The position numbers and the translations under genes are program-made. Under the pieces are notes generated by a model. That model was not told the DNA's origin, made no database searches, and worked only from the letters and a program-made list of their open reading frames with translations. This document shows, piece by piece, positions 32,983-56,559 of a stretch of DNA of 64,000 bases (within the stretch, counting starts at the first letter, position 1; each line of letters starts with the position of its first letter). Origin of the DNA: Propylenella binzhouense (GTDB lineage Bacteria > Pseudomonadota > Alphaproteobacteria > Rhizobiales > Afifellaceae); NCBI RefSeq assembly GCF_009866965.1, contig NZ_SPKJ01000001.1, forward strand, positions 1-64,000, read 5' to 3'.

Positions 32983-33665
32983 TGTCCCATCTCCCGCGAC
33001 CAGTTGATGGCATTGACGTAGATGCCGAGCGGATTGGCGCGGAGCCTTTCGGCGTCGCGCGGAGGCTGCAGAACGACAGTGAGGATGGCGGTCCAACGCT
33101 CGGTCGCCGCGAGTTGGCCGTTCTCGTAGCGGCGTTCGGTCCAGGCAACGCGGAAGCTGTCGGGCGAGGCGCGGATCACGCTGGAGACTTCGACTGCGAC
33201 CTGCTGCCGGCCGACGCGCGTGAAGGGATCGTTCGCCCTTGCGTAGTCGTTCAACGCTGCGGCACCACGATCGGTGGTGAATTCATAAGCCCGCAGCCAG
33301 TTCTGGCGCACGACAATGGGATCGGCAGGCAGCCCACGGACCTGCTCGATGAAGCGCGCAAGGTGGTAGGCGATCTGCGGATCGGTGGGGCGGTAGTCCG
33401 CGACGGCAGGCGCCACGGCCTGGGCCTGGCCGAGATTGTCGACCTGAACTACCCATGGCACCACGGTGCCATGGGCAGACTGCCAAACGAGCGCCGCGGC
33501 AAATCCAGCGGACAGGAACAGGCAGCCGAACGCCATGAGGCGCCAGTTCTTTGCCTGCACCCGAGCCGAGCCAATCCGCTCGTCCCAGACCTGAGCGGCG
33601 CGCTGGTATGGCGTCTCGGGTTCGGGGGTCTTTCCGTAGTGTGTCGATGGCCGTTTGAACATCAT
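32979..33665 (-). CDS. trbF: Conjugal transfer protein TrbF (VirB8-like)
   Basis: Inner-membrane VirB8-type assembly factor of 228 residues: N-terminal cytoplasmic tail, one membrane helix (FGCLFLSAGFAAALVWQSAH) and a periplasmic NTF2-like domain (AYHLARFIEQVRGLPADPIV, SFRVAWTERRYENGQLAATE). Overlaps trbL by 4 bases upstream. Confidence 0.92.
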   Translation of the reverse strand: MMFKRPSTHYGKTPEPETPYQRAAQVWDERIGSARVQAKNWRLMAFGCLFLSAGFAAALVWQSAHGTVVPWVVQVDNLGQAQAVAPAVADYRPTDPQIAYHLARFIEQVRGLPADPIVVRQNWLRAYEFTTDRGAAALNDYARANDPFTRVGRQQVAVEVSSVIRASPDSFRVAWTERRYENGQLAATERWTAILTVVLQPPRDAERLRANPLGIYVNAINWSREMGQ

Positions 33666-35014
33666 TGGTCTCGCTGGGAGAGGTTGACGGAGGCGCCGCC
33701 GCCATGGCTGTCGCCGCTGCGGATCGCGTGAGCGGCGGCCATCACGCCGTGCGACATGTGCTGAGAGCGCTTCATGCGGCGGGCCCAGGCCGGCGGACCC
33801 TCAGACGTCGGCACAGAGGATGCCTCGGCAGCACTGCCACCGACGCTCCCCATGGTCGATGCGCCGCCCGTCGCTTCGAAAGCCGACTGAGCACCCCGCG
33901 CGTAGCTGGTTCGCATGCTGTCGGCAGCGCGGGTTGCAGCGCGACGGAGCGGCGAGACCGCTGCGCTGCCGGCGGCGCAGGCAACGCCACCGAGGCCCGA
34001 AGCCACGCCGGCAGCGCCGGATTGCCCGGCAGCACCAAGGCTATAGGCAGTTGCCGTGCCTCCCGCCACGGCTGCACCCCCCCGGGCGGCCGCGGCCGTG
34101 CCAGAGAGGGCCGCAGCGCCGCCACGTACCGCAAGCCCGCCGGCCGCGCCTGCGGCGACTGCGGCGCCACCAGCCGCGAAGCCCGTGCCGATGGCGGCTC
34201 CGGCGCTGAGTTGTGGGCCGCCCGAGACAATGCCGCTCGCGATCCCAGGACCGAATATCCCGAGGCCGAGCAGCGACAGCGCCGCCAGCACGATGGCCAT
34301 GGCCTGATCGATGGTCGGGCTGGCGCCACCGAAGCCGGCGGTGAACTCGCCAAATAGCGTCGAGCCGATGCCGATAATCACGGCCAGCACCAGCACCTTG
34401 ATGCCGGAGCTGATGACGTTGCCGAGCACGCGCTCGGCCATAAAGGCGGACTGGCCGAACAGCCCGAATGGGATGAGCACAAAGCCCGCAAGCGTAGTGA
34501 GCTTGAACTCGATGAGCGTCACGAACAACTGCACGGCGAGAATAAAGAAGGCGAGCAGCACGAGCGCCCAGGCGAGGAAGAGGCACGCGATCTGAATGAA
34601 GTTCTCGAAGAACGACCAATAGCCCATGAGGCCGGAGATTGAGTCGAGCAGCGGCCGTCCGGCGTCGAGGCCGGTCTGCGCGACACGGCCGGGGCGTAGC
34701 AGATCGGCGGTTGAGAAGCCGGTGCCGGAAGCCTTGAGGCCGAGGCCGGCAAAGGACTCGAAGACGATGCGGGCGAGATTGTTCCAATTGCCGATGATGT
34801 AGGCGAAAACACCGACGAACAATGTCTTCTTGACGAGCCTGGCAATGATGTCGTCGTCCGCGCCCCAGCTCCAGAACAACGCTGCGAGCGTCACGTCGAT
34901 CACGATCAGTGTTGTCGCGATGAATGCGACCTCGCCGCCCAACAGGCCGAACCCGCTGTCGATGTAGCGGGTGAAGACCTCCAGGAAATGATCGATGACC
35001 CCCGTGCCCCCCAT
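33662..35014 (-). CDS. trbL: Conjugal transfer protein TrbL (VirB6-like)
   Basis: Polytopic inner-membrane VirB6-type channel protein. 450 residues from ATG at 35014 (MGGTGVIDHFLEVFTRYIDS); an upstream extension overlaps trbK. About six membrane segments (AFIATTLIVIDVTLAALFWS, LVLLAFFILAVQLFVTLIEF, VLVLAVIIGIGSTLFGEFTA) are followed by a long Ala/Gly-rich, low-complexity cytoplasmic tail typical of TrbL. Confidence 0.92.
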   Translation of the reverse strand: MGGTGVIDHFLEVFTRYIDSGFGLLGGEVAFIATTLIVIDVTLAALFWSWGADDDIIARLVKKTLFVGVFAYIIGNWNNLARIVFESFAGLGLKASGTGFSTADLLRPGRVAQTGLDAGRPLLDSISGLMGYWSFFENFIQIACLFLAWALVLLAFFILAVQLFVTLIEFKLTTLAGFVLIPFGLFGQSAFMAERVLGNVISSGIKVLVLAVIIGIGSTLFGEFTAGFGGASPTIDQAMAIVLAALSLLGLGIFGPGIASGIVSGGPQLSAGAAIGTGFAAGGAAVAAGAAGGLAVRGGAAALSGTAAAARGGAAVAGGTATAYSLGAAGQSGAAGVASGLGGVACAAGSAAVSPLRRAATRAADSMRTSYARGAQSAFEATGGASTMGSVGGSAAEASSVPTSEGPPAWARRMKRSQHMSHGVMAAAHAIRSGDSHGGGASVNLSQRDQ

Positions 35015-35018
35015 GGCG

Positions 35019-35393
35019 CTACTCGGCGTCCTCGGTCTGCGGCGCCGCTTCACGACGGCGCGCTTCAATCGCGGATGAGCCTTCGGCGGACGCTCCACCG
35101 CGTGCTCGTGACTGCTCTCGATCCGCTATCGTGTTGCCGGTCCCAGGCGTCAGGAAGCGTCGGCGGCTCTCAGCCCAGGCGCGCAGGCATGCGGGATCGC
35201 GCGGACCGGCCTCTCCGAGGCTCTGACAACGGAACAGTTCGGCGTTCAGCGGGTCCACGGCGTTTGTCTGCGCCGGACGGGCGGGCTCCATCTCCGGCTG
35301 CTCCTCCTTCCGGGTCAGCTCGACGACCGTCGCCGTGATTGCGACGGCAACGAAGGCGACGGCACCGAGCCGGGCGAGCATGTTTCCGTCCAT
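35019..35393 (-). CDS. trbK-alt: TrbK-alt, putative entry-exclusion protein
   Basis: A 124-residue protein with an N-terminal membrane anchor (LARLGAVAFVAVAITATVVE) and the TrbK-alt motif LNAELFRCQSLGEAGPRDPA followed by CLRAWAESRRRFL. In related systems TrbK limits redundant entry of the same element. The charged C-terminus is variable. It lies between trbJ and trbL, its usual place. Confidence 0.88.
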   Translation of the reverse strand: MDGNMLARLGAVAFVAVAITATVVELTRKEEQPEMEPARPAQTNAVDPLNAELFRCQSLGEAGPRDPACLRAWAESRRRFLTPGTGNTIADREQSRARGGASAEGSSAIEARRREAAPQTEDAE

Positions 35394-35402
35394 CGCGAGG
35401 CC

Positions 35403-36170
35403 TCAGTTTCCAGCGGGGAACATGCTGGCGTTGCCGGGCTGGTAGCCGGAGCCGGGCGTGAGAAACCGCCGGCGCTGCTCGCGGCCTTGCTCCGCGGCGG
35501 CCGCGCGCTCGGCTTCTGCGAGCGCACGGGCGCGGCCATCAGCGGCTACAACGGCGGTGAGGTCCGCGAGCTGTTGCGCTTGAAGGGCGAGGATCTGGTT
35601 GCCAGCCTGGGCGGCTTGCAGGGAGCCGGTCGCACCCTGGCTCTGGCCGATGAGCGCTGACATCTCGGCGCGGTTGGCGTCGAGGTTGCCGACCACTGTC
35701 GCCTGCACGCGCATCGCGTCCTGCAAGCCGCCCACGGTGTTCTGCCATCGGGTGCGAGCGTCGGCGATGAGTTGCTGGTCGGACGCAGACAGCGAGGCAC
35801 TGCCATACGTCGTCTGAAACGCCTGGTCGATTTGCTGGACGTCGAAGGCGATGTTTTGCGTTTGGTTGAGGAGCTGCTGGGTCCGCTGGATCGATTGTTG
35901 CAGCCGCTGGAGCGAGGAGTACGGCAGGCTGGCGAGATTCCGTGCCTGGTTGATCAACATCTGCGCTTCGTTCTGAAGCGAGGTGATCTGATTGTTGATC
36001 TGCTCAAGCGCGCGTGCCGCTTGAAGCACGTTCTGCACGTAGTTCGTCGGGTCGTAGACGATCCACTGCGCCGAAGCGGGCGTGACCACCAGCGGCATAA
36101 GCGATATCGGAAGTGAGAAGATGGTGGCGGCGAGGAGTGCCGCGCGCGAGCGGGATCGACGGGTGCTCAT
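35403..36170 (-). CDS. trbJ: Conjugal transfer protein TrbJ (VirB5-like)
   Basis: Exported VirB5-type minor pilus protein of 255 residues. Signal peptide (ALLAATIFSLPISLMPLVVT, cut after ASA) and a long coiled-coil body (LQAARALEQINNQITSLQNE, LQRLQQSIQRTQQLLNQTQN). The C-terminal QRRRFLTPG resembles the motif in TrbK-alt. ATG at 36170 overlaps the trbE stop by 4 bases. Confidence 0.92.
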   Translation of the reverse strand: MSTRRSRSRAALLAATIFSLPISLMPLVVTPASAQWIVYDPTNYVQNVLQAARALEQINNQITSLQNEAQMLINQARNLASLPYSSLQRLQQSIQRTQQLLNQTQNIAFDVQQIDQAFQTTYGSASLSASDQQLIADARTRWQNTVGGLQDAMRVQATVVGNLDANRAEMSALIGQSQGATGSLQAAQAGNQILALQAQQLADLTAVVAADGRARALAEAERAAAAEQGREQRRRFLTPGSGYQPGNASMFPAGN

Positions 36171-38623
36171 AGTTGAGCCTCCTTTGAGTGTTCGGGGAGG
36201 AGCGTCGAGAAGTTGGGAAGGAGATCGACGGCCCAGCTCACGCCGCGGGCCTCGAGCCACGCAGGGAGGAACCCCTCCCGGCCGTGCTCAGCCAGGATGC
36301 TGGCGATCAGCGCCTGATCATCCTTTGCGGATGCGGCGCAGAGGGCGAGGCCGACGTCGGAGAGGCCCAGCTCGAAAAGGCGATTGCCGCGTCGGGACTG
36401 GCAGTAGTAGTCTCGTTTCGGCGTGGCTCGCGCGAGAATCTCGATCTGGCGATCATTGAGCCCGAACCGGCGATAAATGCTGGTGATCTGCGGCTCGATC
36501 GCCCGGTCATTAGGCAGCAGCAGCCGCGTGTGGCAACTGTCGACGATTTCGGCAGCGATCGTGCTCTTCTCGATCTGTGCAAGCGACTGGGTTGCGAAGA
36601 CGACCGACGCGTTCTTCTTGCGGAGCGTGACCAGCCACTCGGTGAGCTGCTTGGCAAAGCCGGGATCGTTGAGTGCAAGCCACCCTTCGTCGATGATGAG
36701 CAAGGTTGGCGAGCCGTCGAGCCTGTCGGAGATGCGATGAAACAGGTAGGACAGAACGGCCGGCGCCCCCCCGCTTCCGACAAGGCCCTCGATCTCAAAG
36801 GCCAGAACAGCGGCCGAACCCAGATGCTCGAATTCCGCGTCCAGCAGGCGGCCATAGGGGCCTCCAACGCAATAGGGTCGAATTGCCTGTTTGAGGTTGT
36901 TTGATTGGAGCAGCACCGTCAGGCCGGTAATGGTCCGCTCCTCGACAGGGGCGGAGGCAAGAGAGGTCAGCGCCGTCCAGATGTGCTCCTTGACTTCCGG
37001 AGTAATCGCGACGCCTTCGCGCATCAGGATGGCGACGATCCAGTCGGCTGCCCAGGCCCGCTCATAGGTGTCGTGGATGCGTGCGAGCGGCTGGAGAGAG
37101 ACGGAGGTTTCTGAACCTTCGGTGAGGCCGCCACCGAGGTCGTGCCAGTCTCCGCCCATTGCGAGCGCGGCGGCGCGGATCGAACCGCCGAAATCAAAGG
37201 CGAAAACCTGGCTGCGCTCGTAGCGTCGAAATTGCAGCGCCATCAGCGCGAGCAACACCGACTTGCCGGAGCCGGTCGGTCCCACGACCAAGGTGTGGCC
37301 CACGTCGCCGACGTGGAGCGAAAAGCGGAACGGCGTGCTTCCCTCGGTCTTGCCGAAGAACAGCGGCGGCGCTTTGAAGTGCTCATCTTGCTGAGGCCCC
37401 GCCCAGACGGCCGAGAGCGGAATCATGTGTGCGAGGTTCAATGTACTGATCGGCGGCTGCCGGACGTTGGCATACAGATGGCCGGGCAGGCTCCCGAGCC
37501 AGGCGTCGACCGCGTTGACAGTCTCGAGCATTGCGGTGAAATCGCGGCTCTGGATCACCTTCTCGACGAGGCGCAGCTTTTCGTCAGCAAGGCGTGGATC
37601 GCTGTCCCACACGGTAATCGTAGCCGTCACGTAGGCCATGCCGGCGAGGTCCGCGCCGAGCTCCTGAAGGGCCATGTCGGCGTCGGCGGCCTTGTTGGCA
37701 GCGTCGGTGTCCACCAGCACCGACGCCTCATTCGTCAGGACTTCCTTGACGATGGCCGCAATGCTTTTCCTCTTTGCGAACCATTGCCGCCTGATGCGGG
37801 TGAGCAGCTTGGTCGCGTCGGTCTTGTCGAGCAGGATCGCGCGCGTCGCCCAGCGATAGGGGAATGCGAGGCGGTTCAGCTCGTCGAGGATGCCGGGCGT
37901 CGTCGCGGTCGGGAAGCCGACGATGGTGAGGGTTCGTAGGTGCTGATCGCCGAGACGAGGCTCAAGGCCTCCGGTGAGGGGCTGGTCGGCTAGCAGCGCA
38001 TCGAGAAACATCGGTGTCTCGGGAACACGGACACGATGGCGCTTGGTGGAAACGCAGGAATGCAGGTAGGTCAGCGTCTCGCTGTCATCCAGCCAACGGC
38101 ATTCCTTCATGAAACCGTGAAGCAGCGCGAGCACACGGTCGGTGCGGTCGACGAAGGCTCGCAGAATCTCGTGAGGGTCGACGCCTGACCGTTCCCTCCC
38201 CTCGTAGAGCCAAGTCTCCGCACGCGCGGCATCCTCGGCCGGCGGCAGCCAAGCGAACGTGAGGACGTAGCGGGACTCGAAATGCGCGCCTTCTTCCTCG
38301 AAATCAGCCTTGCGCTCGGCATCAAGCAACGCCGACGCGGGATCGGGAAAGATGCTGTCCGGATAGCGGTTGGACGGGTATCGCTGCGCCTCTACGAAAA
38401 TCGCCCAGCCCGAACCGAGACGGCGGAAAGCGTTGTTAAGCCTTGCCGCCACGCCAACCAGTTCCGCTGCAACAGCGGAATCCAGATCTGGACCGCGAAA
38501 GCTTGCGCTTCTTTGAAACGAACCATCCTTGTTCAGAACAACGCCTTGGCCAACGAGCGCAACCCAAGGCAGAAAATCTGCGAGGCGAGTGGCGGTGCGG
38601 CGATATTCGGCGAGGTTCATCAT
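36167..38623 (-). CDS. trbE: Conjugal transfer ATPase TrbE (VirB4-like)
   Basis: The large cytoplasmic VirB4-type ATPase that powers pilus assembly and transfer. 818 residues: N-terminal CagE/TrbE domain, then Walker A VVGPTGSGKSVLLALMAL at about residue 450, Walker B LLIIDEGWLALNDPGFAKQL, and the ATQSLAQIEKSTIAAEIVDS motif. Length and motifs are complete. Confidence 0.95.
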   Translation of the reverse strand: MMNLAEYRRTATRLADFLPWVALVGQGVVLNKDGSFQRSASFRGPDLDSAVAAELVGVAARLNNAFRRLGSGWAIFVEAQRYPSNRYPDSIFPDPASALLDAERKADFEEEGAHFESRYVLTFAWLPPAEDAARAETWLYEGRERSGVDPHEILRAFVDRTDRVLALLHGFMKECRWLDDSETLTYLHSCVSTKRHRVRVPETPMFLDALLADQPLTGGLEPRLGDQHLRTLTIVGFPTATTPGILDELNRLAFPYRWATRAILLDKTDATKLLTRIRRQWFAKRKSIAAIVKEVLTNEASVLVDTDAANKAADADMALQELGADLAGMAYVTATITVWDSDPRLADEKLRLVEKVIQSRDFTAMLETVNAVDAWLGSLPGHLYANVRQPPISTLNLAHMIPLSAVWAGPQQDEHFKAPPLFFGKTEGSTPFRFSLHVGDVGHTLVVGPTGSGKSVLLALMALQFRRYERSQVFAFDFGGSIRAAALAMGGDWHDLGGGLTEGSETSVSLQPLARIHDTYERAWAADWIVAILMREGVAITPEVKEHIWTALTSLASAPVEERTITGLTVLLQSNNLKQAIRPYCVGGPYGRLLDAEFEHLGSAAVLAFEIEGLVGSGGAPAVLSYLFHRISDRLDGSPTLLIIDEGWLALNDPGFAKQLTEWLVTLRKKNASVVFATQSLAQIEKSTIAAEIVDSCHTRLLLPNDRAIEPQITSIYRRFGLNDRQIEILARATPKRDYYCQSRRGNRLFELGLSDVGLALCAASAKDDQALIASILAEHGREGFLPAWLEARGVSWAVDLLPNFSTLLPEHSKEAQL

Positions 38624-38630
38624 GGCAGGC

Positions 38631-38909
38631 TCAGACCGCGAGAAAGGAGGGGATGCGCAGATGCCGGCGGATCACTTCGACGAACAACGGATCGCGCTTG
38701 GCTGCCCATACGGCCGCGAAGTGGCCGGCAGCCCAGAGTCCGAGCCCGACGAGCCAGAGCCGAAGGCCAAGGCCGAGAGCGGCCGCCAGCGTGCCATTGA
38801 GGATCGCGATTGACCTAGGCGCACCGCCGAGCAGAATATGGTCGGTCAGCGCCCGGTGAACGGGCACCGAGAAGCCTGGGACTTCTGCGTTGTCTGCAAT
38901 GCCCGTCAT
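38631..38909 (-). CDS. trbD: Conjugal transfer protein TrbD (VirB3-like)
   Basis: A 92-residue inner-membrane protein of the VirB3 type: VPVHRALTDHILLGGAPRSI, then two adjacent hydrophobic stretches (ILNGTLAAALGLGLRLWLVG, LGLWAAGHFAAVWAA) and a C-terminal DPLFVEVIRRHLRIP. ATG overlaps the trbC stop by one base (TGATG). Confidence 0.92.
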   Translation of the reverse strand: MTGIADNAEVPGFSVPVHRALTDHILLGGAPRSIAILNGTLAAALGLGLRLWLVGLGLWAAGHFAAVWAAKRDPLFVEVIRRHLRIPSFLAV

Positions 38910-39241
38910 CACACGAGCACTCCGCCGCCGAAGCTGAAGAAGCTGAGAAAGAACGAACTGGCCGCGAAGGCGATCGAGAGACCGAAGACGATCTGAACGA
39001 GTCTCCGAAAGCCACCGCTCGTATCGCCGAACGCGAGAGTCAAGCCGGTGACGATGATGATAATCACTGCGATGATCTTCGCGACGGGTCCCTCGATCGA
39101 CTGAAGGATTTGTTCGAGCGGCTGCTCCCACGGCATTGAGGAGCCGGAGGCATGTGCGGCCGGAGCAAGCGCGAGGCTGACGACAGCGGCCGCGGTTGCA
39201 GCGGCAACATGACGACGAAGGTTCTGGAGCTTGTGGATCAC
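38909..39241 (-). CDS. trbC: Conjugal transfer pilin TrbC (VirB2-like)
   Basis: Major pilin precursor of 110 residues from GTG at 39241, which overlaps the trbB stop. Signal peptide (AAATAAAVVSLALAPAAHAS) then two pilin membrane helices (AKIIAVIIIIVTGLTLAFGD, IVFGLSIAFAASSFFLSFFS). The longer frame upstream lies inside trbB. Confidence 0.9.
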   Translation of the reverse strand: MIHKLQNLRRHVAAATAAAVVSLALAPAAHASGSSMPWEQPLEQILQSIEGPVAKIIAVIIIIVTGLTLAFGDTSGGFRRLVQIVFGLSIAFAASSFFLSFFSFGGGVLV

Positions 39242-40221
39242 GCGTGATCTCCTGTGGCGGGCAATGTTGCGGGGATGACGTGGTAGTCGCCGTCGGGTGT
39301 GAGGCCGTGGACGCGTGCGAGCTCGGCGAGGCGGCGCGATGATCCGCGGCCGCTGAGGACAGCGACGAGGTCGATCGTCTCGGCGATGAGGGCGCGAGGC
39401 ACCGTGACCACCGCCTCTTGGATGAGCTGTTCGAGACGCCGCAGTGCCCCGATGGCTGTGCCGGCGTGAATGGTTCCGACGCCACCGGGATGCCCGGTGC
39501 CCCAAGCTTTCAGAAGGTCCAGGGCCTCAGTGCCGCGCACCTCGCCGATGGGGATGCGGTCGGGGCGCAGCCGCAGAGAAGAGCGCACCAGGTCGGACAG
39601 CGTCGCGACGCCGTCCTTGGTGCGCATCGCCACGAGATTGGGGGCGCTGCACTGAAGCTCGCGCGTGTCCTCGATGAGAACGACGCGATCGGCCGATTTC
39701 GATACTTCTGCGAGGAGCGCGTTGGTGAGCGTGGTCTTGCCGGTGCTCGTTCCCCCGGCGACGAGAATGTTGCGGCGATCGGTGACCGCGCTGCGAAGGG
39801 TCTCCGCCTGGTCGGCCGTCATGATGCCGGCGGCCACATAATCCTGCAGCGTGAAGATCGCGATGGCGGGCTTCCGAATCGCAAAAGCAGGCGCGGCCAC
39901 GATAGGCGGCAGCAGGCCCTCGAAGCGCTCTCCCGTCCCGGGCAACTCCGCAGAGACCCGCGGACTTCCGGCGTGGACTTCTGCACCGACATGGTGGGCG
40001 ACGAGGCGGACGATGCGCTCTCCGTCGGCGGCCGACAGGCGCTCGCCAGTATCAGCGAGGCCTTCGGAGAGCCGGTCGATCCAGAGCCGCCCATCCGGGT
40101 TGAGCATCACCTCGACGATCGACGGGTCCTCCAGGAAACCGGCGACCGCGGGCCCTAGGGCCGTCCGCAGCATGCGTGTGCCGCGAAGTATCGCCTCTGT
40201 TTGCTGGAAAGAATTCGCCAT
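39238..40221 (-). CDS. trbB: Conjugal transfer ATPase TrbB (VirB11-like)
   Basis: Hexameric VirB11-type ATPase of 327 residues, first gene of the trb operon. Walker [41 protein letters not shown] (Walker B/Asp box), [20 protein letters not shown] and [16 protein letters not shown] (His box). Complete. Confidence 0.95.
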
Positions 40222-40831: not shown

Positions 40832-42817
40832 CTACAGCTCCATGCCGTCGTTCGGATCGAGCGAGACCTGCCGCGCGATGCCTTGCACGAGGCGGTTCAT
40901 GCGCCTTAGCCGCGCGGCATCGTCGGGCTCGTCATCGTTGGGGTCGATCTCGAACTCATTGGCGATGGGCGGCTTCTTCTCGATCGGTGCCACGCGATCC
41001 AGCTCCGGCTGGCGGCGCCTCTCGGAGCCCGTCGGGTCTTCGTCGTCCATGCCGCTCACTGACGACGCGGCATCCTGCAAGGGTCGCGGCGGCAAGGGCC
41101 TGCCCGTCCAGTCGTCCGATTGCTGGCGATCTGTCTTCGTCAGGATGGGCGGCGGCAAGATTCGCGCCTGAAATCTGGGGTCCTCGAAATAGCGCGCCTT
41201 CTTCGCGCGAATGGGCGGTGTGCCCGCCACCATCACGATCTCGTCTGCGGGCGGGAGCTGCATGATCTCGCCCGGCGTGAGCAGGGGCCGGGCCGTCTCG
41301 GAGCGCGAGACCATCAGATGGCCGAGCCACGGACTGAGCCGATGCCCGGCGTAGTTCCGCATCGCCCGCAGTTCGGTCGCGGTGCCGAGGGCGTCGCTGA
41401 CCCTTTTGGCTGTCCTTTCGTCATTGGTCGCGAACGAGATTCTGACGTGGCAATTGTCCAGGATTGAATTGTTCGGTCCGTAGGCCTTCTCGATCTGGTT
41501 GAGGCTTTGCGCGATCATGAAGCTTTTCAGTTTGTAGCCGGCCATGAATGCCAGTGCGCTCTCGAAGAAGTCGAGGCGGCCAAGCGCCGGAAACTCATCG
41601 AGCATGAGCAGAAGCCGATGCCGCCGGGCCTTGCTGTTCAAGTCCTCCGTTAAGCGGCGGCCAATCTGGTTGAGGATCAACCTGATCAACGGCTTGGTCC
41701 TCACAATGTCGGATGGCGGCACGACGAGATAGAGGGTCGTCGGCCGTGCATCTCCGACAATGTCGGTGATCCGCCAGTCACAGCGGCGCGTGACGGCAGC
41801 CACAACAGGATCGCGATAGAGGCCGAGGAACGACATCGCGGTGCTCAACACCCCGCTTCGTTCGTTGTCCGATTTGTTCAGCAGCTCTCGTGCCGCGCTC
41901 GCGATCACCGGATGCGGTCCTGCCTCGCCGAGATGGGCGGTCTTCATCATCGCCGCGAGCGTGGACTCGATCGGACGCCGCGGGTCGGACAAGAACGACG
42001 CCACGCCGGCGAGCGTCTTGTCCTCCTCCGCGTAGAGCACGTGTAGGATGGCGCCGACCAACAGCGCATGGGAGGTCTTCTCCCAATGGTTCCTCTTCTC
42101 CAAAGAGCCTTCGGGATCAACCAGGATGTCGGCGATGTTCTGGACATCCCGGACTTCCCATTCCCCGCGCCGGACTTCGAGCAGCGGGTTGTAGGCGGAA
42201 GACTTCGCGTTGGTCGGATCGAACAACAGCACCCTGCCATGCTGCGACCGAAACCCGGCAGTTAGCTGCCAGTTCTCCCCTTTGATGTCGTGGACGATCG
42301 CGCTGCCTGGCCAGGTGAGCAGCGAGGGAATGACCAACCCCACGCCCTTCCCACTCCTCGTCGGCGCAAAGCAGAGAACATGATCGGGCCCGTCGTGCCG
42401 GAGGTAGTCGCGACCCAGCTTGCCGAGTACGATACCGTCGGGACCGAGGAGGCCCGCCGCCTCCACTTCGTCGGTCCGGGCCCATCGTGCCGAGCCGTAG
42501 GTGTCGACGTTCGTGGCCTCACGGGCACGCCACACCGACATGCCGATCGCGGCTGCGATCGCGATGAAGCCGCCTGACGCTGCGATGAGGGCCCCTTCCA
42601 CGAAGATCGCCGGCGCATAGGCATCGTAGAAATACCACCACAGAAAGAAGGACGGCGGATAGTAGACCGGCCAGCCGAACACGATGAACCATGGCTCGCC
42701 GAGCTGGGCTTGAAAGCCCAATCGCCACGCCGTCCACTCGGTCGCGACCCACGTCGTGCCGAGGATGATCAGTGCGACGGCGAGGAGCTGCCCCCAGAGG
42801 ATCTTGGTTGCGGACAT
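40832..42817 (-). CDS. traG: Type IV coupling protein TraG (VirD4-like)
   Basis: The hexameric DNA pump that brings the relaxase-DNA complex to the channel. 661 residues: two N-terminal membrane helices (GQLLAVALIILGTTWVATEW and the PSFFLWWYFYDAYAPAIFVE region), Walker A FAPTRSGKGVGLVIPSLL, Walker B LLLMLDEFPALGRLDFFESA, and the MIAQSLNQIEKAYG motif. ATG at 42817 is chosen because the longer frame overlaps the relaxase gene; AGGAGAG-like bases precede it. Confidence 0.94.
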   Translation of the reverse strand: MSATKILWGQLLAVALIILGTTWVATEWTAWRLGFQAQLGEPWFIVFGWPVYYPPSFFLWWYFYDAYAPAIFVEGALIAASGGFIAIAAAIGMSVWRAREATNVDTYGSARWARTDEVEAAGLLGPDGIVLGKLGRDYLRHDGPDHVLCFAPTRSGKGVGLVIPSLLTWPGSAIVHDIKGENWQLTAGFRSQHGRVLLFDPTNAKSSAYNPLLEVRRGEWEVRDVQNIADILVDPEGSLEKRNHWEKTSHALLVGAILHVLYAEEDKTLAGVASFLSDPRRPIESTLAAMMKTAHLGEAGPHPVIASAARELLNKSDNERSGVLSTAMSFLGLYRDPVVAAVTRRCDWRITDIVGDARPTTLYLVVPPSDIVRTKPLIRLILNQIGRRLTEDLNSKARRHRLLLMLDEFPALGRLDFFESALAFMAGYKLKSFMIAQSLNQIEKAYGPNNSILDNCHVRISFATNDERTAKRVSDALGTATELRAMRNYAGHRLSPWLGHLMVSRSETARPLLTPGEIMQLPPADEIVMVAGTPPIRAKKARYFEDPRFQARILPPPILTKTDRQQSDDWTGRPLPPRPLQDAASSVSGMDDEDPTGSERRRQPELDRVAPIEKKPPIANEFEIDPNDDEPDDAARLRRMNRLVQGIARQVSLDPNDGMEL

Positions 42818-42845
42818 CAACCTGCTCTCCTTTTCCCTCGCTTCG

Positions 42846-44585
42846 TTACAGGCCGATGCCCCGCTTGCGGCCGAAGCTCCAATCGATCCCGCCATCGCCA
42901 CGTGCAACGCCCGAGACATGGCGACCGAGATTCCGCTCGAGCGACGGCGACCACGGGACGAGCTGGAAGCCGAGCCCGTCGTCAAGCACCGCAAACCGGC
43001 CGGAGGCGAGATCGAAACGGCGACGGTATGTGCCGGCGACATATTCGCCGGCCGACGGCTTGGCGGCGGCTTGTCCTGTCTCAGCGGTCAGGCGCTCGCT
43101 CAGTGCGTCGAGCTCGCGGCGGCGCAGTGTTTCGATGAGGTTGCGGCTGAAACTCACGCCGCGCGGCTGACGCTCGGCCAGGCCCTGACCGATGAGATGC
43201 TCGGCACGGCGATCAAGTGCGTCGCGCACCTCGGCGCCGAAACCACCGCCGCCAAGGGCTAACGGTTCGCGCGCAATCGCTTGGCGGTCCAGCCAGGTGG
43301 CACCGTTGGCAATAATCTGCTGCTCGAGCGGGATATCCGATCGAACTGCGAGGGCGACGCGCCGCCGGCCCTGTGCATCATCGAACTTGCGCAGCTCGAC
43401 GATCGAACCCGAGCCTGAGTCTCCCGCAGCATCGAGGTCGGCGAGCTTAATGTGATGAGTCCGGCCGTCGACGCCATCAATCACAGCGTAGGCCGAGCCC
43501 TTCAACTCGTCATCGAGACCACGCGCGATGAGGCGGCCAACGATGGGGTCGTCGAGACTCTCTCCGGCGAGCACGTAGCTTGAGGTGCCGCGCTCGATAT
43601 TACGCTCGGCCAGACTGCGATGAATGCGCTTGATGATGTCGCTTCGCTCGCCAAGCTCGCGCAGGGTGTTTTCGGCATTCTCGACCATCACCCACTGGCC
43701 CGGGCCGATCTGATCGGCGAGGCCCAGAGCCTCCAGCTTGCGCAGCCGTCCGACTTTCAGGACGCGAAACTCGTCAGGCTGGCGATCAGGGCTCGGCGCC
43801 AGATCAATGACGCCTGTCCGATACGCGTCACGCGAGAGTTGCCGGTCGAGGTTGGTCCAGCGCTCCGACTCCACCTGACGTTCGAGGTTGCGCCGGATCT
43901 CCTGATCCGTGCGTGGGCCCAACTCCTGCGTCACGAGATCCTGCGCACGCGCACGCATGCCCTCCTTGATGTAGTCGCGCGAGATGACAAGGTCCTGGCC
44001 GTCGTCGGAGCGGCCGCGCAGGATGATGTGGACGTGGGGGTTGTCGGTATTCCAATGATCAATGCCCACCCAGTCCAGCTTGGTGCCGAGGTCCTTTTCC
44101 ATCTGGCTCATCAGGTCGCGGGCGAAGGTCTTGAGGTCCGACATCTCGGTCGCATCCTCGGGCGAGACGATGAAGCGGAAGTGGTGGCGATCGTCCTCGC
44201 ACCGCTCGGCAAACTCCTTGGCATCCAGATCGTCGCCGCCGGGTCCGAAGAGACGGGCCTTCTCCCCATCCCGGGTCACGCCTTCTCGGCGGAGGTAGCT
44301 GAGGTGTGTTGCAAGCGGCGCCGAGCGCGCCGAATGGCGAACGACGCGGGTCTTGATGACCGTGATGCGCGAGCGGCTGGTGAGCAGACGGTTCGCCTGC
44401 ACGGTCGCGCGGCGGCCACGTCCGAAGCGCGATCCCGTGCCGGAGCTGATGTTGCCCGAGCGAGAGATGTGACCGCCGGCCCGCTGCGCGGCCGCAAGCG
44501 CCTGCGCGATGAACGGCCGAGCGCGCTGGGCGCGCGTCGAGCGGATGCGGCCGGGGCGGATGCGGAACTCGTCCTCGACGCTCAT
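42846..44585 (-). CDS. Relaxase / VirD2-like nuclease (DUF3363)
   Basis: Nicks oriT and leads the transferred strand. 579 residues: Arg-rich N-terminus, HUH-type centre (KLDWVGIDHWNTDNPHVHII with His-hydrophobic-His), and the DUF3363 C-terminal part (GPGQWVMVENAENTLRELGE, GFQLVPWSPSLERNLGR). Tyrosines near the N-terminus (LSYLRREGVTRDGEKARLFG) are candidates for the catalytic residue. Start ATG at 44585; the frame upstream enters the candidate oriT. Confidence 0.88.
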   Translation of the reverse strand: MSVEDEFRIRPGRIRSTRAQRARPFIAQALAAAQRAGGHISRSGNISSGTGSRFGRGRRATVQANRLLTSRSRITVIKTRVVRHSARSAPLATHLSYLRREGVTRDGEKARLFGPGGDDLDAKEFAERCEDDRHHFRFIVSPEDATEMSDLKTFARDLMSQMEKDLGTKLDWVGIDHWNTDNPHVHIILRGRSDDGQDLVISRDYIKEGMRARAQDLVTQELGPRTDQEIRRNLERQVESERWTNLDRQLSRDAYRTGVIDLAPSPDRQPDEFRVLKVGRLRKLEALGLADQIGPGQWVMVENAENTLRELGERSDIIKRIHRSLAERNIERGTSSYVLAGESLDDPIVGRLIARGLDDELKGSAYAVIDGVDGRTHHIKLADLDAAGDSGSGSIVELRKFDDAQGRRRVALAVRSDIPLEQQIIANGATWLDRQAIAREPLALGGGGFGAEVRDALDRRAEHLIGQGLAERQPRGVSFSRNLIETLRRRELDALSERLTAETGQAAAKPSAGEYVAGTYRRRFDLASGRFAVLDDGLGFQLVPWSPSLERNLGRHVSGVARGDGGIDWSFGRKRGIGL

Positions 44586-44700
44586 GGCGCCAACCCCGCA
44601 CATCGCACTAAGGCTCTGATTGAACGGAGAGAACGTCGAACTCGCAGGCTGCGCCGATGAGGCGCACCTCCCGATTTCGGCTCGCAAGCTATTGAAAAGA

Positions 44701-44756
44701 CACGACCGTCCTGGCGCGCACATCGCGCCTTTTTATCTCGCCATCGTGCGGTCGTG
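44701..44756. other. Candidate oriT: nested inverted repeats
   Basis: In the 244-base gap between relaxase and transglycosylase, CACGACCG (44701-44708) and CGGTCGTG (44749-44756) form an outer repeat. Inside it GGCGCG (44713-44718) and CGCGCC (44724-44729) form a hairpin followed by five T. A nested repeat directly upstream of the relaxase start is where oriT of such elements usually lies. No nic site was identified. Confidence 0.4.
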
Positions 44757-45992: not shown

Positions 45993-46538
45993 TCACCGCG
46001 GCGGTGCGCGCCATTCGAACTGTCCGGTGCCCTCCTCATCGGTCCACAGCGGGCGTGCGTGGCCGACGATTGTGCTGACCGGGAGCGGGCCGAAGTAGCG
46101 CCCGTCGAGGCTGTCCTCGACCCACCAGTTCATGAGGAAGATCTCGCTGTCGGTGATGCGGCGGCAGCCCTGCCAGACCGGCAGTTCGCGGCCGAAACGG
46201 TCGCGCGCCAGCGCGTCGCCCATGTCGACGCCGTCGACTGTGACGTGCATACCGTGGCGGCAAACCTCCTGCCCCGGCAGCCCGGCAACACGTTTCAGAA
46301 GCGGCACACCACGTGGCAGGTAGTGACGCTCAGCCAGGAAGGAGGAAAGCGGCTCGGGCGCATTGACGACGACCAGGTCGGTGACCTCGAGCCGATCCGC
46401 CGGCGCGATCGTATAGAAGCCGATCGGCATGCTGGCGGAAGCGTTCCAGATGAGTCGTGGCGTCACCGAGACGAAGGAGCCTACGCCGACCGACATCACG
46501 GCGAAGTACGTCGTCATGACGCAGCCGAAGCGTGTCAT
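45993..46538 (-). CDS. traF: Conjugative transfer signal peptidase TraF (S26)
   Basis: A membrane peptidase of 181 residues that matures the TrbC pilin in related systems. N-terminal helix (TTYFAVMSVGVGSFVSVTP), catalytic Ser in NASASMPIGFYTI, and catalytic Lys in PLLKRVAGLPGQEVC. The C-terminal part has the LPVWQGCRRITDSEIFLM strand. ATG overlaps the DUF2840 stop by 4 bases. Confidence 0.9.
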   Translation of the reverse strand: MTRFGCVMTTYFAVMSVGVGSFVSVTPRLIWNASASMPIGFYTIAPADRLEVTDLVVVNAPEPLSSFLAERHYLPRGVPLLKRVAGLPGQEVCRHGMHVTVDGVDMGDALARDRFGRELPVWQGCRRITDSEIFLMNWWVEDSLDGRYFGPLPVSTIVGHARPLWTDEEGTGQFEWRAPPR

Positions 46539-47044
46539 GACTCGATCTCGCGGCGCAGGAGGATCGCGCGATGCTGCTCGATCGTGTAGGCGCGCGGCTC
46601 CTGCCCCGCAGTCAGCCGGTTGTGGACGTGCCGCCAATGATGCGGCGAGACCTCGCTCGGATCGATTCCAACCGTCTCAATGGCGTCGATGATCTGGAGG
46701 ACGCGCTCGACTTTCGGCCAGCTCTCCACCTTGAGGAGGATGTCGCCGCCAGGACGCACGAATGGCAGGGTCTGGTAGCGTTCGCCCGGCACGATCGCGC
46801 GGACGATGTCGATGCGCGAGATGATCGTTCCGTGCTCATTGGCTGCCCAACGGACAAAGGCAAACACCGTGTTCGGAGCAAACCCGACGATACGGCGGCG
46901 ACGGTCGAGTATCTCTTCGTGAACGTCGCGGCCGAAGCGGATCCAGTGCTCGACCCTCTTCTCGATCCACGTCAATTCGACACGGGTGATGCCGTCCGAC
47001 GGGAGAGCTTCGCATACAATGCGCAGGTCAGACGCACCGATCAT
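46535..47044 (-). CDS. DUF2840 protein
   Basis: A 169-residue soluble protein of the DUF2840 family (TRVELTWIEKRVEHWIRFGR, FAPNTVFAFVRWAANEHGTI, YQTLPFVRPGGDILLKVESW). Function unknown; always in this position, between ParA/RHH and TraF. Overlaps both neighbours by 4 bases. Confidence 0.88.
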   Translation of the reverse strand: MIGASDLRIVCEALPSDGITRVELTWIEKRVEHWIRFGRDVHEEILDRRRRIVGFAPNTVFAFVRWAANEHGTIISRIDIVRAIVPGERYQTLPFVRPGGDILLKVESWPKVERVLQIIDAIETVGIDPSEVSPHHWRHVHNRLTAGQEPRAYTIEQHRAILLRREIES

Positions 47045-47295
47045 GGCGTGTCTCCTTCACTTGGGGGGAATTCGCGAGAGAGCAGGTCGCGCAGCATGTG
47101 AGCGACCGTGACGCCGTGCTGGAAGGCCGCGATCTTGATTCGCCCCCGCAGGTCCGGTGTGACGTCAATGGTGAGGCGAGCGCTGAACTCGGCTGTCGCG
47201 CCATTGCTGGCATGGCGCGGGTCGGGCGCCCTCACCCACTTGTCGGCGCCGCCGGGACGTGAAGCGAAAGTGCGGGGTGCCCTGCGGTCGTTCAT
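47041..47295 (-). CDS. Ribbon-helix-helix protein (ParG/CopG-like)
   Basis: An 84-residue protein with a flexible N-terminal half and a ribbon-helix-helix C-terminal half (FSARLTIDVTPDLRGRIKIA, AFQHGVTVAHMLRDLLSREF). It may be the DNA-binding partner of the ParA encoded two genes upstream. Overlaps the methyltransferase stop by 4 bases. Confidence 0.8.
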   Translation of the reverse strand: MNDRRAPRTFASRPGGADKWVRAPDPRHASNGATAEFSARLTIDVTPDLRGRIKIAAFQHGVTVAHMLRDLLSREFPPSEGDTP

Positions 47296-48035
47296 GCAAG
47301 GCTCCCGTCGTGAAACGGCAGGACCGTGGCTATGCGCGCGCGGGCGAGGTCGGCCATTTCGGCGTCGATCTCGCAGCCGATGTAGTGTCGGCCAGACAGA
47401 AGACAGGCCTCACCTGCAGCGCCGGAGCCGGCGAACCAATCGCCCACGAGGCCTCCCGGGGGGCAACTGGTGCGGATCAAAATTTCGAGCAGCGCTGACG
47501 GTTTCTCGGTCGGATGGATGGCCCGCCCATGGCAATTGCGAACAAAAAGAACCGAGCGCATGAGCCGGGGGCCGCCGTCATGGCTGGTGTAGCGGCCGGC
47601 GTCGATATGGCCCATGTGGGGTGGGCGCTGCTTGCGGCGGACGGTCCGTGCCGTGGCATCAAGCGAGGTCTGAACATCGTTGTAGACGTTCCGCCACGGC
47701 GCGTCCGCGCGGTAGAATTGCACGACCAACTCGTGCACGCGCTTGAAGCGGTCAACGTGAAAGCTGCTGCCGTTCTGCTTCTCCCAGACGATTTCCTGGG
47801 CGTATCGGAAGCCCGCTTCGACGAACCGCTCGGCCGTGGCCATGAAGCAGCGGAGCGAGCCGAAGGCCCAGAGCGATCCAGTGGGCTTGAGGGCGCTGCA
47901 TGCTTGGGGGAGCCAGCCGTCGACACGCTGATCCCAGGCGAGCGACGTGTCGCCGTAGGGCGGATCGGCGACGATCATATCGAACGGTCCTTGCGCCGGC
48001 ATGAGAGCGCGGCAGTCGCCAGTGAGCACGATCAT
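47292..48035 (-). CDS. DNA methyltransferase (N4-cytosine/N6-adenine type)
   Basis: A 247-residue site-specific DNA methylase. Catalytic motif IV DPPYGDTSLAWDQ is near the N-terminus, a recognition region follows in the middle, and the SAM motif DWFAGSGAAGEACLLSGRHY is at the C-terminus; this order is that of beta-class enzymes. No restriction enzyme is adjacent, so it is a solitary methylase that may protect the element from host restriction or mark its DNA. It sits inside the par/tra operon with 4-base overlaps. Confidence 0.87.
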   Translation of the reverse strand: MIVLTGDCRALMPAQGPFDMIVADPPYGDTSLAWDQRVDGWLPQACSALKPTGSLWAFGSLRCFMATAERFVEAGFRYAQEIVWEKQNGSSFHVDRFKRVHELVVQFYRADAPWRNVYNDVQTSLDATARTVRRKQRPPHMGHIDAGRYTSHDGGPRLMRSVLFVRNCHGRAIHPTEKPSALLEILIRTSCPPGGLVGDWFAGSGAAGEACLLSGRHYIGCEIDAEMADLARARIATVLPFHDGSLA

Positions 48036-48685
48036 GGCGCCAGCCTCTCGATGTGAAGCTTGGCGATCTCGTCGATCAGGGCCTGAATCTCGCGAGCGGC
48101 GAAGCCGTCGCGGTCGATCTCAGAGGCGAGCTGACTGGACTGCGCGGCTCTGGCGAAAACGACGCGCTGGCCGACGGTCGAGGCGAGCATCGGCGGGTCA
48201 TGGTCTGCCAGCGTGTCGGCCGTTTCGCGCGCGATGATCGTGCGGGCGCCGCAGCGATTCAGCACGAAGCGCGCCGCCAGTTGCGGCCGATAGATGCGAG
48301 CCTCGCTGAGAAGCGCGAGCATTTCGGCCGAACCCCAGCCGTCTAGCGGGGAGGGCTGGACTGGGATGAGCACGAAATCAGCGGCAAGTAATGCAGAGCG
48401 CATCAAGCTTGCGACGCGCGGCGGACCGTCGATGATGATGTGGTCGACGCCACGGACAAGTTCAGGCGCCTCGCGATGCAGCGTGTCGCGGGCAAGCCCG
48501 AGGACACCGAACATCCGCGGGAACCGTTCACGCGCGCGCTGCTGCGACCAGTCGAGTGCCGAGCCTTGGGGGTCGGCGTCGATGACCGTGACGCGCTTCC
48601 CGCGCTGCGCCCACTCGCCGGCGAGGTGAAGCGCGAGCGTCGTCTTTCCTACGCCTCCCTTCTGATTCAGCAGAGCGAGGATCAT
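48032..48685 (-). CDS. parA: ParA-family partition ATPase
   Basis: A 217-residue Walker-type ATPase: ILALLNQKGGVGKTTLALHL (deviant Walker A), VTVIDADPQGSALDWSQQRA, HIIIDGPPRVASLMRSALLA. Probably stabilises the element by partition. It follows repA after a 208-base gap that contains the iterons and the hairpin at 48746. Confidence 0.93.
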   Translation of the reverse strand: MILALLNQKGGVGKTTLALHLAGEWAQRGKRVTVIDADPQGSALDWSQQRARERFPRMFGVLGLARDTLHREAPELVRGVDHIIIDGPPRVASLMRSALLAADFVLIPVQPSPLDGWGSAEMLALLSEARIYRPQLAARFVLNRCGARTIIARETADTLADHDPPMLASTVGQRVVFARAAQSSQLASEIDRDGFAAREIQALIDEIAKLHIERLAP

Positions 48686-48745
48686 GGCGTAGCTCCCGCA
48701 AGCGGAGCGCCATGCACAGGTATGGATAATGCGAAGGCCGTTAGA

Positions 48746-48768
48746 AAGATTCCGAAGGAATCTTCGTT
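48746..48768 (-). terminator. Terminator-like hairpin downstream of repA
   Basis: Read on the minus strand, AAGATTCC and GGAATCTT form an 8-bp stem closed by a TTC loop, with a TTCT-rich tail after it. It lies between repA and parA and could end the repA transcript. Confidence 0.5.
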
Positions 48769-48823
48769 AGAAGAGTTACGGCTGCCGCAACACGTTGAAT
48801 CAGCGGGAGGATTCGCCGATTTT

Positions 48824-48890
48824 GGTCCCCGAAAGCACGAGGGATGGGTCCCCGATGGCACGATAGGCCGGGTCCCTGATAGTACGAGGC
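48824..48890. repeat. Three 20-bp iterons, candidate replication origin
   Basis: Three direct repeats begin at 48824, 48847 and 48871 (periods of 23 and 24): GGTCCCCGAAAGCACGAGGG, GGTCCCCGATGGCACGATAG and GGTCCCTGATAGTACGAGGC. About two helical turns apart and directly behind repA, they look like initiator-binding iterons. TTATCCCCA (48901-48909), one base off the DnaA box, lies beside them at the end of repA. Confidence 0.7.
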
Positions 48891-48893
48891 GAC

Positions 48894-49772
48894 TCACAGC
48901 TTATCCCCAGGGCGAAGGGGCGCGCCGCTGCGCGCAGCGGCGCCGTGCACGGGTTCGGTGGGAATGAAGGCAAGGCGCTCGGACCCGTTCAGCGTCCGAT
49001 CGATGCTGAGGCGGTAGCCCGGCAGCGGTTGGCGGCGGACGATCTCGCGCAGGTCGTAGGCGAAGTGCTTGAGTGGCGAGAGGCTTCCGGACTTCGCGTG
49101 GAGATGTGCGAAGTCAAAGCTCCAGCCGTGCTGTTGGCGACCGCCATGCTTTCGCACGAGCCGGTAGAGCCAGCGCTCCAGGCCGCCCGTCAATCCGAAA
49201 TATGCGCGGTCGATTGTGAGGACGAGCGCGTCGTCGAGGACGGCGGCGTAGAACCAGTCCGGTACGATCAGCTCTAGGCCGAGCGGGCGACCGTGTGGAT
49301 CGGCCCTTTCCTTCCACTCGTTGATCCAGGAGAAGCGATGCATCCGCCGCTCCGTCAGCTGGCGGATCGACGTCGCTACCGTGGTGGATTGCAGGCGGTC
49401 GAGCGCAGCCTTCAGGCGATCGTAATCGCGAGCGCTCACGCCGCGGCCGATGAACGAGAGAATTTCGTACGGCGTTGCTGCCATCAGACGCGAGGGCTGA
49501 AGGCCGATGTCGCGCGCCTCGACGATTTGCGAAGCCGCCCAGATCAGGACGTCCGCGTCCCAGATGGTTGCCAAGCCGTGTTCGGGCACCGCCTCGACAC
49601 GGATGACGATCGTCCCGGCTTTGAAGTCGATTGGCGCAAGGCGCTTCGATTTTGCCAGGGAGAAGAATGGGTAGGCCATGAGGTCCTGCGCGTCGCGCGG
49701 TGCGAGATCGCCGGGGAGAGCCCGGAAAAGATCGAGCTGCTCGCGCTCTGTGCTGCGGCGCGCCGAAGTCAT
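48894..49772 (-). CDS. Replication initiator protein A (RepA-like)
   Basis: A 292-residue protein of the replication initiator A type: LMAYPFFSLAKSKRLAPIDF, WDADVLIWAASQIVEARDIG, YEILSFIGRGVSARDYDRLK and TLNGSERLAFIP. Found on plasmids and in many alphaproteobacterial integrative elements. The iterons directly downstream support real initiator function. It follows the AlpA-like gene after 8 bases. Confidence 0.88.
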   Translation of the reverse strand: MTSARRSTEREQLDLFRALPGDLAPRDAQDLMAYPFFSLAKSKRLAPIDFKAGTIVIRVEAVPEHGLATIWDADVLIWAASQIVEARDIGLQPSRLMAATPYEILSFIGRGVSARDYDRLKAALDRLQSTTVATSIRQLTERRMHRFSWINEWKERADPHGRPLGLELIVPDWFYAAVLDDALVLTIDRAYFGLTGGLERWLYRLVRKHGGRQQHGWSFDFAHLHAKSGSLSPLKHFAYDLREIVRRQPLPGYRLSIDRTLNGSERLAFIPTEPVHGAAARSGAPLRPGDKL

Positions 49773-49780: not shown

Positions 49781-50053
49781 TCAGCGATGCTGACGTCCGG
49801 CATGCAGCGCTGACGCATGGCGCTTTGCCGGAAGAACGGAGCCGCGAGGATCGGATGTGGAGGTGACCGCGCCCCGGTCAGCCCAGGCCTGCAAGTCCTC
49901 CAGAGCGTAAACGACCCGTCCGCCGAGCTTTCGATATGCGGGGCCTGTGCCGTAGGTACGATGCTTTTCGAGCGTACGGCTGGACAGGCCGAGAAAGTTG
50001 GCTGCCTCCGGAGTTCGTAGAAAGCGCGGCGGCAAGCCGGCGAGAGTGGTCAT
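49781..50053 (-). CDS. AlpA-like helix-turn-helix protein
   Basis: A 90-residue excisionase/AlpA-type winged helix (RFLRTPEAANFLGLSSRTLE, KHRTYGTGPAYRKLGGRVVY, ALEDLQAWADRG). It may regulate repA-tra expression or help excision. ATG at 50053 has GGAGG about 6 bases upstream on the minus strand; the longer frame is unsupported. Confidence 0.88.
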   Translation of the reverse strand: MTTLAGLPPRFLRTPEAANFLGLSSRTLEKHRTYGTGPAYRKLGGRVVYALEDLQAWADRGAVTSTSDPRGSVLPAKRHASALHAGRQHR

Positions 50054-50185: not shown

Positions 50186-50728
50186 CTACAGCCGACGGCG
50201 ACGCTTGAGTAGCGAGCGGTAGTCGCCGGCAATCAGGGCCAGACCGTCTTTAACGAGGTCGATAGTCGCGTCGCGTAGGGCGGAGGTTTTCCAAGGCGTC
50301 TCGGAGACGCGGGATTGACCGTAAATGGCTTCGGCAATCTGGCGGTAGCTCGCTCCTTCGCTGTGACCGTCGACCGCCTGGAGCATACGTCTTAGCCGGC
50401 GGCGCTGTTGCACTGTAATGCGTGCGTCGGGGAGCAAGCGAAGGCTATGCGCCATGCGCCAAAGCCTTGCGATCGCCTCTATGCGGTCAAGGCCGTCCGT
50501 ACCCAGAGGGAGGAGAGCGATGACTCGCTGACCTGGCGCAATCCCCGGCAGAAGAAGGACATGGATCGATAAGAGGCCGCGGCCAAGGGTGAGACTTACA
50601 CCACCATCGGAATCCGTATGACTGGTCTCGGCATCTATCGCTGGCGCAACGATGCTGTCGACGGTGGATATAGCCTGCCATGCACCCAGGATAACCGTGC
50701 CTGGGTCGGTTTCCGGTGACCAGAACAC
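50186..50728 (-). CDS. DUF2285 protein, probably the 3' part of a frameshifted DUF6499-DUF2285 gene
   Basis: A 180-residue DUF2285 protein (GVSLTLGRGLLSIHVLLLPG, LDRIEAIARLWRMAHSLRLL, PDARITVQQRRRLRRMLQAV) with a helix-turn-helix-like C-terminus (EGASYRQIAEAIYGQSR). The sense frame continues upstream of the chosen start as PGLSAKDVTVFWSPETD. Removing one base in GATTGA near 50757 joins it to the DUF6499 frame as RFPD-DPGLSAKDV. In related elements the two domains are often one protein. Confidence 0.75.
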   Translation of the reverse strand: MFWSPETDPGTVILGAWQAISTVDSIVAPAIDAETSHTDSDGGVSLTLGRGLLSIHVLLLPGIAPGQRVIALLPLGTDGLDRIEAIARLWRMAHSLRLLPDARITVQQRRRLRRMLQAVDGHSEGASYRQIAEAIYGQSRVSETPWKTSALRDATIDLVKDGLALIAGDYRSLLKRRRRL

Positions 50729-50756: not shown

Positions 50757-50960
50757 TCAATCGGGAAAGCGCAACCCCCAGCGCTCGCATACCTCGCGCG
50801 TTAAGTCTTTCGATTGGGTCGGACGGCGCTCGCTTCGGAAATAATCGTGCTGGTAGTTCGTGTTTCGCCGCAACCATTCCCAGGCCAAGTCTGACGCGAT
50901 CAGGCCGTCCACATAATCATACGATACCGACGAATGCCAATGCGATGTATCAGGTCTCAT
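50757..50960 (-). CDS. DUF6499 (transcriptional regulator domain) protein, possibly truncated
   Basis: A 67-residue protein (YDYVDGLIASDLAWEWLRRN, YQHDYFRSERR, CERWGLRFPD) of the DUF6499 type, normally the N-terminal domain before DUF2285. The stop at 50757-50759 follows RFPD immediately and looks like the result of a single-base insertion. Confidence 0.72.
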   Translation of the reverse strand: MRPDTSHWHSSVSYDYVDGLIASDLAWEWLRRNTNYQHDYFRSERRPTQSKDLTREVCERWGLRFPD

Positions 50961-56549: not shown

Positions 56550-56559
56550 GGGGCATTCG

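Follow-up and report, generated by a model that had tools for sequence, protein, structure and literature searches.

A probable RepA- and iteron-type replication origin in a putative integrative and conjugative element of Propylenella binzhouense

Results

Gene organisation around repA

The window, that is, the whole stretch of DNA analysed (64,000 nucleotides, positions 1 to 64,000 of contig NZ_SPKJ01000001.1 of Propylenella binzhouense), belongs to a contig of 158 kb. The following features were found on its minus strand, in this order: a split FseA-type activator, an rdfS-like gene, repA, a gap of 208 bp, parA, a methylase gene, an RHH gene, a DUF2840 gene, traF, a transglycosylase gene, a relaxase gene, traG, and the trb genes. 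The product of repA (48894..49772, minus, 292 aa) is an RPA-family (PF10134) replication initiator (288 bits over 228 of 228 positions, cut-off 27), and the gap between repA and parA holds three direct repeats with a conserved core of 17 bp. The initial annotation had placed initiator, iterons, and ParA within a conjugative module, and this agrees with the relaxase, TraG, and trb genes at 30818–44723.

Relatives were drawn from the best 80 of 594 confirmed RepA stretches in genome contigs and are hence close relatives by choice (RepA 78–89% identical over the best segment). The activator is divided into a DUF2285/RovC part (50186..50728, minus; PF10074, 115 bits) and a PF20109 part in another frame (50757..50960, minus; 79.5 bits). 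The activator of ICEMlSymR7A is made by a +1 programmed frameshift, and by analogy the split observed here (50186–50960, minus) would be consistent with such an event. The rdfS-like gene (49781..50053, minus), an HTH_17 gene (PF12728) for a putative excision factor, lies 8 bp upstream of repA; in the relatives that were readable at this point (78/78, among the best 80 of 594), repA follows rdfS immediately. The probable identity of this gene as rdfS was taken from its place and from analogy with the elements described in the accessible text of PMC8627217 and PMC11963761.

Downstream of the gap, parA (48032..48685, minus, 217 aa) encodes a small partition ATPase (NF041546, 258 bits, cut-off 180; also Pfam). 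It is followed by an N6/N4 DNA methylase gene (47292..48035, minus; PF01555) and by the RHH gene (47041..47295, minus, 84 aa; PF23807), the product of which is the probable ParB partner. A small ParA and a small RHH partner with a methylase gene between them were thus found, and by sequence they are assigned to a putative type Ib partition system. The DUF2840 gene (46535..47044, minus; PF11000, 253 bits), a gene for a traF-type S26 peptidase (45993..46637, minus), an RlxS-like relaxase gene (42846..44723, minus; PF11843 and PF03432; the listed 5' end may be too long), the gene for the TraG coupling protein (40832..43042, minus; PF02534, 348 bits), and the mating-pair genes trbB to trbI (30818..40221, minus) come next; the best model for the relaxase is RlxS, at 599 bits against a cut-off of 850. 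Judged by sequence, rdfS, traF, relaxase, traG, and trb in this order make up a cluster of the Tn4371/ICEMlSymR7A type. Beyond trbI lies a LysR gene (29584..30642, plus; PF00126/PF03466), a candidate TraR by likeness to the system of PMC11448139 only. Among the 67 relatives whose downstream DNA exceeds 6 kb (from the best 80 of 594), parA and the RHH gene were each present in 40, DUF2840 in 66, and the relaxase gene in 65. An orphan-type methylase gene at the parA–RHH junction was also observed in two of these 67 (L109 and L116).

The contig beyond the window

Right of the window, strawberry-notch, ArdC, and ParB-like genes are present, much as in pCHQ1. The interval from the DUF2285 genes to the gene for strawberry-notch holds cargo, namely an IS110 transposase gene followed by genes for metal P-type ATPases and a multicopper oxidase (window 52239–64000, L045:344–1828). 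Farther right, ahead of the integrase gene described next, the same contig carries a Druantia-like defence cluster (L046:1471–12564) with DruE (1724 bits), DruK, DruL, and a cytosine methylase, near which CapP-like and patatin-effector genes were seen.

An arm-binding tyrosine integrase is encoded at contig positions 102117–103460, about 53 kb from the probable origin, and reads inward. A fragment resembling a tRNA 3' end adjoins the start of the integrase gene, with catabolic and transport genes beyond. No whole tRNA was detected at this fragment with ARAGORN, and a genome-wide search (229 contigs) for a second copy, exact or with up to three mismatches, gave no convincing partner. Two records that bear the title complete chromosome (L076 and L082, among the best 80 of 594) contain the same module; a tyrosine integrase, one among several integrases in those genomes, lies some 24 kb from repA. 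The suggestion that the element is integrative is favoured by the inward integrase, the tRNA fragment, and the chromosome-titled records, but the expected pair of attachment repeats was not found; the element is likely to be an ICE rather than a plasmid. Another integrated element is suggested on contig C159 (1701–24195), where about 22.5 kb separate two genes for tRNA-Arg (ACG) and an integrase gene lies close to one of the two.

Iterons and near-DnaA box

Read along repA, the repeats start at +6, +30, and +53 past the stop codon, with spacings of 24 and then 23 bp. Copy 1 (TCGTACTATCAGGGACC; 48871..48887, minus) lies 6 bp behind the repA stop and is followed by copy 2 (TCGTGCCATCGGGGACC; 48847..48863, minus) and copy 3 (TCGTGCTTTCGGGGACC; 48824..48840, minus). 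Inside the last codons (3' end) of repA lies the site TTATCCCCA (48901..48909, plus), which has one mismatch to the DnaA box consensus, TTATCCACA. Three iterons of 20 bp with a period of 23–24 bp, behind repA and beside a near-DnaA box, had been reported initially; number, period, and place were recovered, and the length was corrected to the 17-bp core.

The best triple-repeat score in the segment 48686–49772 (1087 bp) was 13 identical columns out of 17, 300 dinucleotide shuffles of this segment peaking at 11/17 and all other blocks of the 64-kb window at 10/17. When the 4.7-Mb genome was searched with the iteron consensus, only these three sites were found at zero or one mismatch and one further site at two mismatches; with up to three mismatches allowed, 48 matches were obtained in total, versus 13 with the reversed control. 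Direct repeats that adjoin a rep gene and are conserved are present, and by sequence the site would accordingly be classed as a putative oriV of the iteron type.

Conservation of the iterons and of the adjoining DNA

Iteron positions, and identity to the window by class of site, were determined with all 80 loci (best 80 of 594). All three iterons were found at +6/+30/+53, with three mismatches or fewer each, in 78 of the 80, the third being missing in L061 and L073; the objection foreseen in the initial annotation, that iterons might not be conserved in related elements, is thereby answered. Identity to the window was 92.4% for iteron columns (4080 cells), far above the values for iteron spacers and edges (49.5%, 1920 cells) and for fourfold-degenerate repA sites (50.2%, 10598 cells), so the iterons are under constraint. 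At the place of the DnaA-like box, one mismatch was counted in 38 of the 80 relatives, two in 17, three in 23, and four or five in two.

Past the iterons lies an AT-rich block with TAAC repeats (48733..48783, minus), a candidate DNA unwinding element. Mean GC is 0.38–0.47 in 20-bp windows starting at +110 to +140, against 0.63 for the whole window. In an ungapped alignment (81 unique sequences), column conservation was 0.81 for this block (+110 to +160) and 0.64 for the less conserved stretch from +70 to +110; GGGGATAAGCTGTGA, ahead of the iterons, was conserved as well. Omitted from this alignment were L002, L006, L008, L012, L036, and L047, also L003 and L061 as too short, and any locus lacking iteron 1 at +6; the conservation value that it gives for iteron 1 is therefore biased upward. 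A hairpin (AAGATTC-CTTCG-GAATCTT; 48746..48764, minus) lies inside the AT-rich block. Its covariation was examined in the 53 of 81 loci that have the CTTCG loop (22 unique sequences): 147 of 154 stem cells were paired, versus a shuffle maximum of 132, and six pairs were formed in 22/22. The hairpin is present also where no parA was found.

Association of the iterons with RepA

A double-iteron pattern gave six matches, in four of 385 genomes of the class, all of them at most 200 bp behind an RPA match, and its reversed control gave none in the same genomes, of which 29 have any RPA match. The letters of the iterons shift with the RepA clade, and three copies at 23–24 bp persist in more distant RPA loci: iterons of the GGGAACC type were found in L006, L008, L012, pMLb, and pOT1-2, of the GGAGTA type in two Citrobacter plasmids, and of the GGCGCG type in pBYT1-1. 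Six of seven RPA loci at 55–61% identity have the triple repeat, and L016 has two copies only. A clear downstream triple repeat (score of at least 12) was seen in only four of 14 RPA loci at 30–40% identity, so not every member of the RPA family shares this layout; a search up to 350 bp from the RPA match of pMl2 showed no such repeats. All 27 parA-less relatives (27/27, among the best 80 of 594) keep the three iterons at the same places. The repeats therefore belong with RepA, because parA-less loci keep them, their letters follow the RepA clade, and all six matches of the pattern stand behind an RPA match.

The genome has a second RPA copy on contig C185, with TCGGGAYTTCGGGCGCA iterons, a RepA that is 59% identical, and an exact TGTGGATAA in front. 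It forms part of a second RPA–ParA module with a different iteron type (L047:10557–12265).

Predicted structure of RepA

The repA gene is intact in all of the best 80 of 594 relatives. An AF2 model of RepA, for which an alignment of 41 sequences hand-picked from the loci at hand was used, has two winged-helix domains (mean pLDDT 75.5, pTM 0.71), the first 38 residues and residues 277–291 being of low confidence. Its best match among solved folds is RctB domains 2–3 (Z 16.4, 236 residues); RepE gave Z values of about 10 (RepE–iteron complex: 10.0 over 189 residues). These initiators were matched by fold search only, a PDB sequence search with RepA giving nothing better than E 0.4. Both RctB and RepE are iteron-binding initiators, and the model suggests that RepA is an initiator of this two-winged-helix kind, with predicted iteron binding.

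Relatives on plasmids

By tblastn, RPA relatives are encoded in 1149 plasmid records. Among eight plasmids that carry a close RepA and were searched whole, RepC is also present on pMLb, pOT1-2, pCW1_1, and pMl2; a second RPA match was found on pMC4 (full) and pCHQ1 (partial), and one Citrobacter plasmid was typed IncC. The eighth, pBYT1-1, has neither RepC nor a second RPA match, yet was typed with two replicon clusters. A clear autonomous copy of the close type was not found among these eight, seven of which carry, or were typed with, another replicon; the origin is thus often carried by another replicon, as expected of an element that is integrated or hitch-hikes. In a circular Sphingomonas plasmid of 21.7 kb, the sole annotated initiator is a more distant RPA protein, its gene followed by three iterons spaced 23/22, which supports use of the RPA family as a true replicon. 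Two Rhodopseudomonas "plasmids" of 17.9 kb that have the iterons of the window (NZ_CP133112 and NZ_CP133113) were rejected as autonomous copies: the records are linear, and the secretion-system gene that comes last in them continues to the final base, so they are probably assembly fragments of two related elements.

Discussion

Proposed function of the site

The initial annotation's view of the site as a probable origin is supported by its conservation, its specificity, its layout, and the predicted fold of RepA. We consider it probable that a Tn4371/ICEMlSymR7A-type ICE has its RepA-dependent, iteron-based oriV at this site, switched on together with excision. From computed sequence features, conservation, gene order, and predicted fold, we infer the following course of RepA binding, strand opening, operon timing, and copying of the circle. 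RepA would bind the three iterons just behind its own gene, beside the DnaA-box-like site; the AT-rich block past the iterons would then open, and host replication enzymes would be loaded. With repA apparently in the excision operon behind rdfS, replication would start only once the FseA-type activator had turned on rdfS, and it would be timed to the activator because repA directly follows rdfS. Excision and replication would share one switch, and the circle would be copied before re-integration or transfer. As RepA would be made only at excision, the origin would be quiet while in the chromosome, which would also fit the presence of two same-iteron elements in one strain (the Rhodopseudomonas records). 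Segregation of the circle would fall to ParA and the RHH protein, which some 60% of close relatives (among the best 80 of 594) encode.

Two published systems bear on this course. According to the accessible text of PMC11963761, rdfS of ICEMlSymR7A heads an operon with traF, the promoter of which is almost silent without FseA and is damped by RdfS. For a Tn4371-family ICE, the available part of PMC11448139 gives, upon TraR induction, increases of 130-fold for attP and 40-fold for attB, each relative to time zero, and does not term this replication; by analogy, a rise of attP above that of attB would fit copying of the circle. Taken together, the gene order and the origin-like site suggest replication of the element once excised. 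Against this reading weigh the DnaA-like box, kept with one mismatch in only 38 of the 80 relatives, the other replicons on seven of the eight plasmids, the repeats missing up to 350 bp from the pMl2 RPA match, the few clear triple repeats in distant RPA loci, and the lack of the gene in symbiosis ICEs.

Other explanations were weighed against this origin. RepA and its iterons might serve control only, RepA regulating its own operon or starting second-strand synthesis once the element has reached a recipient. Such a role would suit a site among genes that are co-directional from rdfS to the relaxase gene, the covarying hairpin in the same block, and the fact that sole-replicon status is shown for no close relative. 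We regard it as unlikely: a near-DnaA box together with iterons and an AT-rich block is typical of plasmid origins, RepA is modelled as a full two-domain initiator, and the circular Sphingomonas plasmid has RPA as its sole annotated initiator. A plasmid or chromid nature of the contig, with the site as its ordinary replicon, is in our estimation quite improbable. The many plasmid records with RPA relatives and the missing second attachment repeat would speak for it; against it speak the inward integrase with its adjoining tRNA 3'-end fragment, the catabolic and transport genes that follow, and the two chromosome-titled records, in which one of several integrases, a tyrosine integrase, is encoded some 24 kb from repA.

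The position of the repeats upstream of parA would also be compatible with a centromere (parS) on which ParA and the RHH protein act. This reading is disfavoured to the point of being hardly credible, since the repeats persist in relatives without parA and their letters vary with the RepA clade. Residence of such elements in chromosomes, and the lack of the gene in symbiosis ICEs (accessible text of PMC8627217), might indicate a relic of a plasmid past that is out of use. A relic would hardly keep repA intact throughout the best 80 of 594 relatives and its iterons far above the conservation of fourfold sites; by the latter test this explanation is disfavoured and is considered very improbable.

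With the RepA-dependent origin as the preferred reading, a wider proposal can be made tentatively, at somewhat less than an even chance: ICEs of the rdfS–trb kind that have repA would be conditional replicons, in which an rdfS–repA operon starts both excision and copying from an oriV with three iterons at set distances. RepA/iteron specificities would split into compatibility groups, of which this genome would contain two. Extrachromosomal copying of ICEs is a long-standing matter of debate. A plasmid-type origin that integrative elements in many alphaproteobacteria keep strongly constrained provides a precisely located site for experiments; if the proposal is true, ICE excision is tied to replication through one operon, and the origin offers a handle on how such elements move between plasmid and chromosome life.

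Comparison with known systems

The presence of repA and parA in this ICE family is already known. For Tn4371-type ICEs it was proposed in 2009 that RepA, related to the RepA proteins of pVS1 and pMLb, may take part in replication (PMC2789088). The locus resembles that family in having repA and type Ib parA beside transfer genes, and differs in that ParB is called truncated in all elements of the accessible account, whereas an 84-aa RHH gene stands here behind an inserted methylase gene; the same text describes neither origin nor iterons, the word "iteron" occurring zero times. The order rdfS, traF, rlxS, traG, trb is shared with ICEMlSymR7A-type ICEs (PMC8627217, PMC11963761), the available parts of which describe no origin. 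In non-symbiosis Mesorhizobium ICEs, rdfS and traF are separated by genes for a replication initiator and DUF2840, whereas symbiosis ICEs are without the initiator gene, as far as the accessible text of PMC8627217 goes; an initiator is thus not needed for ICE life in general. No paper treating Tn4371, repA, and iterons together was found in a search of the accessible papers, and among the matches listed in wider searches, judged by titles and beginnings of abstracts, none was recognised as describing such an origin, which does not prove novelty.

Direct repeats, a near-DnaA box, an AT-rich block, and a predicted two-winged-helix initiator are shared with iteron plasmids that have RctB/RepE initiators; here, by contrast, only three iterons with rigid 24/23 spacing lie behind the rep gene, in an apparent excision operon. 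The element would resemble SXT/R391 and ICEBs1, for which the accessible text of PMC4489591 reports that copying outside the chromosome stabilises the ICE. Those elements start replication at oriT with the relaxase (PMC4489591), whereas a separate RepA and oriV are proposed here.
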